This document shows, in pieces, positions 25,824 to 28,512 of a stretch of DNA of 64,000 nt; position 1 is the first letter of the stretch, and every line of letters begins with the position of its first letter. The notes under the pieces were generated by a model that had not been told where the DNA came from, made no database searches, and saw only the letters and a list, made by a program, of their open reading frames with translations. A program made the translations under genes and the position numbers. The DNA comes from Lysinibacillus louembei (GTDB lineage: Bacteria > Bacillota > Bacilli > Bacillales_A > Planococcaceae): positions 1,294,001-1,358,000 of the forward strand of contig NZ_CP137624.1 in NCBI RefSeq assembly GCF_033880585.1, given 5' to 3'.

Positions 25824-26891
25824 ATGAAAATTAAACCAACAACAGATATAGTAGCATCTTGGATTAAGAGCTACGTGCCGCAAAAAGATTGATCAGAATT
25901 CAGCAGAAAACGCCTACTTCTACAGATGAGGGATGAATGCTGAGATAGGCTTTCATTCAGTAGGTGTCCAAACGCCCACTGAATTCTAATAAAGCCTCCG
26001 GCGGATGTCAGGGATTTTGAAAGGAGTCAATTGCGCAAGCACAATTCAAAATCCCGACGCAATTATGCCAAGGCATAATTGATTTTTTTATCAGTGGAGG
26101 ATTTAGAAAGAAAGCTAGATTTATCGAATGTACTTGTTATGCCAAAAGATGAATTCTATGAGCATTCGGTCTATCAGCAGCCTGATTATGTTAATAGCTA
26201 TGAATATTGGAATATAAAAAACGCTCAGTATGTCATTGTTGCGGAAAGTGATTGGATTGAGCTACTTGATGCAGAACAAAGGCAATTCATTTTAGCAGCA
26301 TAACAAAAATATGAGCGAGGACTTGTAGTACCAGCCTCCTTTATTTAGAATATGGAACGAATTCCTAAAGACTATGTCCAGAATGAGCATGTAATTTTGC
26401 AGCATCAAATGTGGGAGCGGCTAGATTGGGTATGTAAGGAACAATTGCTTACGACGATGGTCCATGAATGGTGGGATAACGGAGAGTGTGAGGAAGCTCC
26501 AAGTGAGTTGCCTCTATTTTTAAAGCCCTATACCAATAAATTTTGCACACAGCAAGGGGCTAATTGTTTAGCGACAGTAGTGTATGCAATGAGTGAAGGA
26601 AAGCAGCGATGGTTTATAGACGAATGGATACATCAAAAAACATTTGTGGAAAAGCTGAAGCAGTATAACTATCGACCAACAAATGCTGATAACCTGCAAA
26701 TAGGTGATGTTGTTGTATGGCATGATGACAATGGAATTATTCAACATGCAGCTTATTTTATTGGGCGAAATCTATTCTTTAATAAGCATGGGCAAACTAT
26801 TTTTAACCCGTGGAAGTTACTCTCAAAAGAGCAATTATACAAAGAATGGAATCATTTAAAAGCGATTGTATATAGGCAGGAGGAGAATTAA
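25824..26891 (+). pseudogene. Decayed NlpC/P60-like protein gene with insertion and two stops
   Basis: An ATG with AGGAGAA opens a frame of 22 codons (MKIKPTTDIVASW) that ends at a TGA inside an inserted repeat. The coding sequence resumes at about 26082 (FLSVEDLERKLDLSNV) and runs to 26889, interrupted in the same frame by TAA at 26301 and TAG at 26346. Between and after the stops the sequence stays coding-like (QKYERGLVVPASF; NMERIPKDYVQNEH). The C-terminal part has QQGANCLATVVYAM and IIQHAAYFIG, a Cys/His pair like that of NlpC/P60-fold hydrolases. The internal ATG at 26352 has no ribosome binding site. The whole is best read as one inactive gene. Confidence 0.75.
25893..26085. repeat. Structured insertion (repeat element) in the NlpC/P60-like pseudogene
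   Basis: The insertion starts within GATCAGAATTCAG and ends before TATCAGTGG. It holds three structures: outer arms GAATTCAG (25896) and CTGAATTC (25979-25986) around an inner dyad; GGGATTTTGAA paired with TTCAAAATCCC (about 26010-26052); and CAATTATGCC-AA-GGCATAATTG followed by TTTTTTT. The last unit is a variant of the hairpin seen at 44.0 and 47.8 kb. No protein is encoded. It behaves like a non-autonomous mobile or REP-type repeat. Confidence 0.6.
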
Positions 26892-27416
26892 GTGGAAGTA
26901 GTTTTATTTAATGGGGAAATCGATGATTTAGTGCGCTTGTTAACGGAAAATGAATGGCCTTATCATGCTGATATGAGTGTTGAGGAGAATACTGTGAGAA
27001 AAGCCGTGGAAAAGGGCTATTATGCAGATGGTCGCGAAACATTTTGGATTATTGAAAATGAAGAAAAAGTTGGCCTACTCATTATCAATGATATCGATGA
27101 TACGATTCCGCTGTTTGACCTTCGTTTAGCTGTATCAACACGTGGAAAAGGGCTTGGTGTGAGGGCATTAAAATGGATGCAAGATTATTTATTTGGAGAG
27201 AAAAATAAAGTTCGGATTGAAGGCTACACACGTGCTGATAATACTGCAATGCGCAAATGCTTTACGAAAGCAGCCTTTGTCAAGGAAGGCTATTTGCGTA
27301 ATGCCTGGGAAAATAGCGACGGCACTGTTTCGGATACGGTATTGTATGGTGCGATTTATGAGGATTGGAAAAATGCAACCGTGACACCAAATAGAATGAA
27401 TGAAGTGCCATACTGA
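26892..27416 (+). CDS. GNAT N-acetyltransferase
   Basis: 174 residues, RimJ/RimL-type GNAT. The acetyl-CoA loop is in LAVSTRGKGLGVRALKWMQDYLF (R-G-K-G-L-G), followed by the family segment IEGYTRADNTAMRKCF and the pattern KEGYLRNAW. The GTG start follows the TAA of the upstream pseudogene directly and has AGGAGGAG. The acceptor substrate is unknown. It ends just before the leader region of a second acetyltransferase. Confidence 0.9.
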   Translation: MEVVLFNGEIDDLVRLLTENEWPYHADMSVEENTVRKAVEKGYYADGRETFWIIENEEKVGLLIINDIDDTIPLFDLRLAVSTRGKGLGVRALKWMQDYLFGEKNKVRIEGYTRADNTAMRKCFTKAAFVKEGYLRNAWENSDGTVSDTVLYGAIYEDWKNATVTPNRMNEVPY

Positions 27417-27418
27417 TA

Positions 27419-27427
27419 TGTTATAAT
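27419..27427 (+). promoter_or_regulatory. Extended -10 promoter of the leader-acetyltransferase transcript
   Basis: TGTTATAAT gives a perfect -10 with a TG at the extended position. Transcription would begin near 27434, leaving a leader of about 115 bases before the acetyltransferase gene at 27549. Confidence 0.6.
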
Positions 27428-27459
27428 GATTGACAATAAAAGCAAAGGAGTTGATTCGA

Positions 27460-27492
27460 ATGAAAAACGTACATAAGGTGATTGGCGAGTAA
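27460..27492 (+). CDS. Candidate 10-residue leader peptide
   Basis: AAAGGAG lies eight to ten bases before an ATG that opens a ten-codon frame, MKNVHKVIGE, ending in TAA. Its position between a promoter and a ribosome-binding-site-sequestering hairpin is that of the leader peptides of inducible cat and erm genes. It could also be the stump of a deleted gene. Confidence 0.45.
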   Translation: MKNVHKVIGE

Positions 27493-27541
27493 AATCTACT
27501 TACTCTTTTCAATCACAGAGGCTTACTATTATTGAAAAGAG
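27487..27541 (+). promoter_or_regulatory. Mutually exclusive hairpins sequestering a ribosome binding site
   Basis: CTCTTTTCAAT (27503-27513) pairs perfectly with ATTGAAAAGAG (27531-27541); the 3' arm contains the AAGAGG ribosome binding site of the gene at 27549. An alternative stem, GAGTAA (27487-27492) with TTACTC (27500-27505), overlaps the leader peptide's stop codon and the 5' arm of the first. The leader and the two stems together resemble a translational attenuator. Confidence 0.5.
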
Positions 27542-27548
27542 GTCTATT

Positions 27549-28076
27549 ATGTATCAAGATAATGAATTAATCATCCGAGCTGTGGAGGAGAAGGATTTAA
27601 CGCGTCTATGGGAGCTTATCTATAAGGATGAACAACCAGAATGGAAAAAATGGGATGCACCTTACTATCCACATCAATCTAAAACATTAGAGGAGTTTTT
27701 ACCAATCGGGCAAGGTTGGATTGGTGATGATGATTTTTGGGTGATTGAAGTAGCTGGTGTTGTGCGTGGTATTGTGTCGTATTATTGGGAGCATGAGCCT
27801 TCACAGTGGCTGGAAGTAGGTATCGTTTTCCATGAAGGTGGCTCGTGGGGCAAAGGCTTAGGCACACGTGCATTAAAGCTATGGATTGATCATTTATTTA
27901 ATACAATGCCATTAGTGCGTGTTGGTTTCACAACATGGTCAGGCAATAAACGCATGATTCGAGTTGGTGAAAAGCTCAATATGCAAATGGAAGCGAGAAT
28001 TCGCAAAGTGCGCTATTACGAAGGGCATTATTATGACTCTATTCGCATGGGCATTTTGCGTGAAGAATGGGAATAA
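27549..28076 (+). CDS. GNAT N-acetyltransferase behind attenuator-like leader
   Basis: 175 residues, RimJ/RimL-type GNAT. LEVGIVFHEGGSWGKGLGTRALKLW carries the acetyl-CoA loop (G-K-G-L-G), followed by VRVGFTTWSGNKRMIRVGEKLNM. Its ribosome binding site AAGAGG lies in the 3' arm of a strong hairpin. If the leader acts as in cat or erm genes, translation would need ribosome stalling upstream, which would suit an acetyltransferase that modifies a translation inhibitor. That role is inference; the substrate cannot be read from sequence. Confidence 0.9.
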   Translation: MYQDNELIIRAVEEKDLTRLWELIYKDEQPEWKKWDAPYYPHQSKTLEEFLPIGQGWIGDDDFWVIEVAGVVRGIVSYYWEHEPSQWLEVGIVFHEGGSWGKGLGTRALKLWIDHLFNTMPLVRVGFTTWSGNKRMIRVGEKLNMQMEARIRKVRYYEGHYYDSIRMGILREEWE

Positions 28077-28081
28077 ACAAG

Positions 28082-28111
28082 AAAGGTGGCGCAGAGAAGC
28101 GCCGCCTTTTT
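28082..28111 (+). terminator. Intrinsic terminator after the second acetyltransferase
   Basis: AAAGGTGGCGC and GCGCCGCCTTTTT flank a six-base loop; the stem is GC-rich and followed by five T residues. Confidence 0.92.
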
Positions 28112-28115
28112 AAAA

Positions 28116-28199
28116 TCGCCGATATATTTGAAATTTCGCCGATAAATTGGCGAAAGTCGCTGATATATCCTCAAAAGTCGCTGATATATAGTTGGCTTG
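28116..28199. repeat. Four tandem 21-bp units
   Basis: The units begin TCGCCGATATAT, TCGCCGATAAAT, TCGCTGATATAT and TCGCTGATATAT and repeat at exactly 21 bases; the inner parts diverge. A 21-base period keeps a reading frame and equals two helical turns. On the minus strand it would encode a seven-residue repeat (IYQRLLR, IYQRLSP, IYRRNFK), but no convincing gene contains it. Confidence 0.8.
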
Positions 28200-28249
28200 C
28201 ATGACGTATGATAAATCGCTCTTTGGTACATTGTAGTGTAGCCTGTGTT

Positions 28250-28381
28250 GCTAAAAGCTGCCAGTAAAACGGTGCTTGCGCTATAAAATAATAAAATAGC
28301 TTCCCATCGCCCACCAATGATTGCACCACCCCCCGCTGCGCTCACCATTATCCCATAAGTTGAAGGACATCCTTTAAAAAA
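28250..28381 (-). pseudogene. Possible MFS transporter fragment
   Basis: On the minus strand a short coding-like stretch reads YGIMVSAAGGGAIIGG, then EAILLFYSASTVLLAAF, like a loop and membrane helix of a major facilitator protein. It then runs into the 21-bp repeats. There is no ribosome binding site and both ends are missing. The rest of 28200-28512 is AT-rich with no gene apart from the upstream region of the sigma factor gene. Confidence 0.35.
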
Positions 28382-28512
28382 GTCATTTCCTGTGAATCAA
28401 GTGAAAAAGCAATCATTAATGTGCAAGTATACAAACTGAAGGAACTTTCACAAAAGCTGTAACGAAACTCCTTCAAAATCTATATATAAGTATGGCGAAG
28501 GGAGGGAAATGA

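Follow-up and report, generated by a model that had tools for sequence, protein, structure and literature searches.

The gene for a GNAT-family acetyltransferase in a Metasolibacillus genome of 3.96 Mb is preceded by a short leader open reading frame (ORF) that is conserved among Bacillales together with this same gene, and that quite probably acts as a three-segment translational attenuator, reading the progress of a ribosome on the leader. Segment 1 (common form, GTGATTGAAAAG) is the end of the leader ORF, segment 3 (TTGAAAAGAGG) is the ribosome-binding site (RBS) of the acetyltransferase gene and nearly a copy of segment 1, and segment 2 (CTCTTTTCAATC), which lies between them, is complementary to both. 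The locus lies in a window of 64,000 nucleotides (the whole stretch of DNA that was analysed), in which the following features were assigned.

26892–27416: upstream GNAT gene, the stop codon of which directly precedes the −10 element
27419–27427, plus strand: extended −10 promoter element TGtTATAAT, read from the sequence
27444–27456, plus strand: leader Shine–Dalgarno (SD) sequence AAAGGAG (27444–27450) with a conserved TGAT, an extended SD form (sequence and conservation)
27460–27492, plus strand: leader ORF, MKNVHKVIGE-stop, ATG 27460, TAA 27492 (sequence and relatives)
27478–27492, plus strand: segment 1, GTGATTGGCGAGTAA, the final leader codons; pairing with segment 2 would leave the RBS free
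27500–27516, plus strand: segment 2, TTACTCTTTTCAATCAC, partner of either segment 1 or segment 3
27531–27542, plus strand: segment 3, ATTGAAAAGAGG, which contains the GNAT SD; pairs with segment 2 (27503–27513)
27549–28076, plus strand: putatively regulated gene, GNAT-family acetyltransferase of 175 amino acids (Pfam Acetyltransf_3, E 7.8e-19)
28082–28112, plus strand: probable intrinsic terminator, GGCGCagagaaGCGCC then gccTTTTT, read from the sequence

The −10 element at 27419–27427 has no good −35 partner and is absent from the list of the consensus promoter scan; in 50 of the 55 leaders described below, −10-like hexamers lie no more than 64 nt ahead of the leader start, as counted with loose patterns and no control. 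The palindrome downstream of the acetyltransferase gene was listed by the pattern scan in its minus-strand version only, and a probable terminator at this position implies a transcript that is probably monocistronic. Between the leader and the gene there is no intrinsic terminator, with no T run after the hairpin and no plus-strand match in the scan. A short intergenic repeat follows at 28116–28195 (variants of TCGCTGATATAT and TCGCCGAT), of which no fewer than seven other partial copies occur in this genome (L002–L008); similar copies adjoin the acetyltransferase gene in Bacillus ndiopicus (L012).

The extended −10 element, the AAAGGAG and the ten-codon frame MKNVHKVIGE, which an earlier note on this DNA had pointed out, are all present in the sequence, as are the two stems that it described: a perfect 11-bp hairpin (27503–27513 with 27531–27541), the 3′ arm of which contains most of the AAGAGG (27537–27542), and a competing stem of GAGTAA (27487–27492) with TTACTC (27500–27505). 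Of 300 dinucleotide shuffles of the region, one produced a perfect inverted repeat of 11 bp. The competing stem is found in the minimum-energy structure (RNAfold) and is longer than had been noted, with GTGATTG (27478–27484) also pairing with CAATCAC (27510–27516); the fold of the whole leader, taken alone, is unremarkable (z −1.4), and the feature is therefore proven by comparison rather than by single-sequence folding. That the leader end and the GNAT RBS are near-copies, both complementary to segment 2, is a further property absent from the earlier description.

Of the 261 genomes of the family, 136 contain relatives of the acetyltransferase, which were also found in many other Bacillota; the regions upstream of these relatives yielded 55 distinct versions of the leader, all in Bacillales (Metasolibacillus, Solibacillus, Lysinibacillus, Ureibacillus, Viridibacillus, Kurthia, Psychrobacillus, Planomicrobium, Oceanobacillus, Lederbergia, Alkalihalobacillus, and others). 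The common form reads ATG-AAA-(3 to 6 variable codons)-(AAG/CAG/ATG...)-GTG-ATT-GAA-AAG-TAG, spacer, CTCTTTTCAATC, loop, (A)TTGAAAAGAGG, ATG. The leader ORF, the SD-sequestering hairpin, and the competing stem are thus all kept in relatives, so that the lack of conservation by which the earlier note would have been refuted was looked for and not found. The exact segment 1–2 pattern is present in 39 of the 261 family genomes, once each and always upstream of this gene, and its reversed version has no match in any of them. A covariance model gave strong matches (E ≤ 5e-11) in 50 of the 261, again once each; the intermediate matches that were inspected proved to be divergent copies or remnants of the same GNAT gene, and the weaker ones inspected (L212, inside an ORF, and L245–L250) look like chance. 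By neither search was the leader found before any other gene in these genomes. The neighbouring genes are common within genera only, none being shared across many genera, which indicates that leader and acetyltransferase gene are kept together as a unit; their association is exclusive and independent of context across many genera. A search of 26800–28500 against Rfam gave only sub-threshold chance matches and no family at the curated threshold, the viral contigs searched gave no match, and literature searches of partial coverage returned no description of the leader.

Several members of the family depart from the common arrangement. Decayed or truncated GNAT copies in four genomes (L241 in G132, L243 in G138, L242 in G260, and L244 in G088) still have a recognisable leader, partly fused to internal fragments of the gene. 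One genome (G156) has two GNAT paralogs (L013 and L120), of which just one keeps the leader. In Lysinibacillus mangiferihumi (L058, 2800–3006), about 80 extra bases separate segments 2 and 3 of a leader with intact outer parts.

Both alternative helices are well preserved among 53 aligned sequences. A standard pair is formed in 93.8% of the cells of the 2:3 helix, as against 41.7–69.4% when one strand is slid by 1–3 columns, and in 98.3% of those of the 1:2 helix, as against 37.2–69.2%; in the clade of the window, the 1:2 helix is extended by GAGTAA/TTACTC. Covariation is thin, consisting of one two-sided change in a single genus for 2:3 (U–A to C–G in six Oceanobacillus leaders, where the SD changes from GAAAAGAGG to GAAAAGGAG) and of G–U type changes only for 1:2, the shuffle control of which was uninformative. 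Since the sequences are conserved, covariation is limited, and the strength of the case lies in conservation and geometry.

The geometry is that of an apparent ribosome ruler. The distance from the leader ATG to segment 1 (its GTG) is 18 nt in 48 of the 55 leaders and 21–27 nt in the rest, never fewer, and that from the leader stop to the core of segment 2 is 10–21 nt, never fewer. The 30S initiation complex of B. subtilis gives a toeprint at +16, which lies 16 nt beyond the A of the start codon (PMC9226507), so that segment 1 would just escape an initiating ribosome. Measured in this way, a ribosome at the leader stop would cover segment 1 and just spare the core of segment 2. As a short hairpin loop does not need 10 nt, the lower bound on the second distance is most simply read as clearance for the ribosome.

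Masked folding, in which a footprint from −14 to +15 of the P-site codon was forced to be single-stranded, was carried out for 47 six-codon leaders. The mean probability of the 2:3 helix was 0.50 with no ribosome, 0.42 and 0.44 with the ribosome on codons 1 and 2, 0.81 on codon 3, 0.89–0.92 on codons 4–9, and 0.83 at the stop. The accessibility of the SD ran the opposite way (0.40 with no ribosome, 0.44 and 0.43 on codons 1 and 2, and 0.12–0.24 thereafter), the difference in RBS accessibility between codon 1 (0.44) and codons 4–8 (about 0.13) having a Wilcoxon p of 6e-12. A ribosome on codons 3–10 is thus predicted to force the 2:3 helix and sequester the RBS, and one on codons 1–2 to permit the 1:2 helix and leave it free. 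In an RNA ending just after segment 2, the 1:2 helix has a median probability of 0.98, which gives the freeing stem a kinetic lead without a ribosome. Two results of folding count against such a switch. The free full-length RNA is no more than balanced between the two stems (1:2, 0.39; 2:3, 0.50), and in the window's own leader the RBS is partly paired even without the 2:3 helix; since the SD takes part in other weak pairs as well, its accessibility there differs little between the free RNA (0.25) and one with a ribosome at the start (0.16).

Based on these spacings and the masked-folding scan, we infer the direction of the switch as follows. During normal growth, a ribosome would initiate on the leader, reach its stop, and cover segment 1 as segment 2 emerges; with segment 1 masked, segment 2 would pair with segment 3, and the RBS of the acetyltransferase gene would be hidden (OFF). 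When no ribosome loads, or when one is held at the first two codons, the 1:2 helix would form instead and the gene would be translated (ON). The logic thus appears, in this model, to be reversed relative to that of the cat and erm leaders, completion of the leader being repressive and blocked initiation or an absent ribosome derepressing. Altogether, blocking ribosomes as they begin translation probably switches the enzyme on, and inhibitors acting on initiation would be the natural inducers. It is also possible, as a tentative reading, that the leader is a sensor of initiation stress, the end of which serves as a decoy copy of the SD, with completion repressing, arrest at codons 1–2 derepressing, and slowed release at the V-I-x-x-stop ending setting the OFF state.

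The main rival, which we regard as improbable, is attenuation in the classical cat and erm direction proposed in the earlier note, where a drug-bound ribosome stalls near the leader end (VIxx-stop), melts the sequestering hairpin, and turns the acetyltransferase on. The parts it calls for are in place, the leader having its own SD as well as the SD-sequestering hairpin, and where the spacing is tightest, the footprint of a ribosome halted at the stop would extend over two bases at the start of the 5′ arm. It would, however, require the stalled ribosome to open the 2:3 helix, which the spacings appear built to avoid: the distance from stop to hairpin has a lower bound that clears the ribosome footprint and no upper bound that forces an overlap. 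Moreover, the ribosome parked at the stop still gives the 2:3 helix at 0.83 in masked folding, and with a ribosome over segment 1, the sequestering stem loses its only competitor. Of the cat and erm logic, therefore, the leader ORF with its SD-hiding hairpin and competing stem has held up, but the freeing of the RBS by a leader-stalled ribosome has not, since both the spacings and the masked folding point the other way, with a ribosome on codons 3–10 covering segment 1 and driving the sequestering hairpin.

The coding content of the leader bears on both directions. The ATG is present in all 55 leaders, and the SD takes the form AAAGGA-n-TGAT in about 50 of them, with TGAT at −8 to −5; NTGATNNNNATG, present in many, was considered as an additional in-frame start ahead of the leader and is treated as part of the extended SD because a stop codon intervenes in some Oceanobacillus leaders. 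Codons 2–6 vary freely, which makes a specific drug-arrest peptide there unlikely and speaks against the classical direction, and the VI[EG][KE]-stop ending is kept. Codon 7, which lies mostly outside the 1:2 helix, is nonetheless GTG in 53 of 55 leaders, and V and I at positions N−3 and N−2 from the stop are nearly invariant, the ATT lying also within that helix. The ending persists even in Saccharibacillus (L045, L048, and L052; MKNTTSNTTHEVIDN, MKNANMNINTAHEVIQH, and MRKTTFIDAYEVIND), where segment 2 is lost and GTG-ATC-x-x-TAA is kept, and which is nested among full-leader relatives in the GNAT tree; L081 likewise has the leader ORF and has lost segment 2; such leaders count against the three-segment reading. 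In Saccharibacillus, a ribosome that terminates on the leader lies close enough to the GNAT SD to reach it directly. The conserved GTG codon and VIxx-stop are not accounted for by pairing alone, which also counts against that reading; possible means of holding the ribosome at the leader stop are a release-slowing signal and the internal SD-like GGTGAT, alone or together. This ending counts in favour of the classical direction, as V-I in ToiL and L-I in MsrDL lie equally far from the stop, where erythromycin hinders release (PMC12121999, PMC10314930). On the other hand, two leaders with damaged frames (L049, with a nonsense codon at codon 6, and L056, with a one-base deletion) still stop where a ribosome would cover segment 1, which would fit a ribosome acting as a plug better than a specific arrest peptide.

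The AlphaFold model of the acetyltransferase (pLDDT 91) has as its closest solved folds the SpeG spermidine acetyltransferases (TM 0.77, 23% identity), 1nsl (a probable acetyltransferase, B. subtilis YdaF), and RimL. Despite the similar fold, the protein is not classed as SpeG, its score of 30 bits against NCBIfam NF011709 being far below the curated cut-off of 218. No match above cut-off was found in the curated resistance families, and all plasmid homologs were below 60% identity. It is plausible that its substrate is an inhibitor or a component of the ribosome or translation, and the enzyme may, as the earlier note suggested, be induced by a drug that it modifies. The spermidine acetyltransferase neighbours, together with the VIxx-stop ending kept independently of pairing in Saccharibacillus, are what could be cited for a second rival, in which the leader senses a metabolite such as a polyamine that slows release at this ending, a ribosome held at the stop represses, and the enzyme is controlled by its own substrate or product; we consider this very unlikely, given the SpeG score and the fact that holding at the stop induced by the substrate would lead to repression, when a detoxifying enzyme would call for the opposite. 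Least probable is a structural element without regulation, in which the hairpins keep translation of the gene at a low, unchanging level and the leader is translated incidentally, as the mutually exclusive stems, the ATG in 55 of 55 leaders, the 18-nt spacing, and the exclusive association with one gene over many genera would be hard to explain in this way.

If the reversed direction is correct, the leader would represent a compact single-gene regulator of an acetyltransferase in many environmental Bacillales, with a logic opposite to that of the textbook resistance leaders. Switching by translation stress would make the target of the acetyltransferase a directly testable question, and a leader turned on by blocked initiation would be a simple reporter for initiation inhibitors.

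In cat and ermC, a leader ORF with its own SD is followed by a hairpin hiding the SD of the gene, and a drug-stalled ribosome opens this sequestering stem. The present leader has the same parts, but masking of segment 1 is predicted to promote the sequestering stem, and codons 2–6 are not conserved; we do not place it in this family because the defining feature, a stall that disfavours the sequestering stem, was looked for in the model and the reverse was obtained. In trp-type attenuators, the ribosome completing the leader masks the first segment or segments, and the repressive hairpin forms. This masking logic is shared, whereas the present leader has no control codons and no terminator and would act on the initiation of translation; with three segments rather than the four of trp, the absence of translation should mean ON, not OFF. 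Further parallels are upstream ORFs (uORFs) responding to translation stress. In the uORF of B. subtilis vmlR (PMC9226507), ribosomes stalled at the start codon are the ON signal, as proposed here, an SD-sequestering hairpin and competing structures are present, and the peptide varies; in vmlR, however, a terminator is present and the stalled ribosome acts by disrupting an anti-antiterminator, whereas the present leader and its gene have no terminator between them, and the 1:2 helix must stay intact when a ribosome is parked at the start. The MsrDL leader (PMC10314930) has the hydrophobic pair at N−3/N−2 before the stop, L-I there and V-I here, but it is a six-residue peptide of different sequence that controls a terminator, and the ribosome held at its stop is the ON state. 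In toiL-topAI-yjhQP of E. coli (PMC12121999), a short uORF, which is reported to end in V-I-x-x-stop as well, governs access to the RBS, translation stress induces, and one gene of the operon, yjhQ, encodes a GNAT protein, with no meaningful sequence similarity between YjhQ and the present enzyme. The toiL uORF itself pairs with the RBS, so that a ribosome anywhere on it frees the RBS, whereas the present uORF ends in a copy of the RBS, and a ribosome occupying it is expected to cause sequestration of the RBS. The leader described here thus resembles the translation-stress switches of toiL and vmlR, with a different arrangement, in which its end mimics the SD instead of pairing with it and no terminator is involved.
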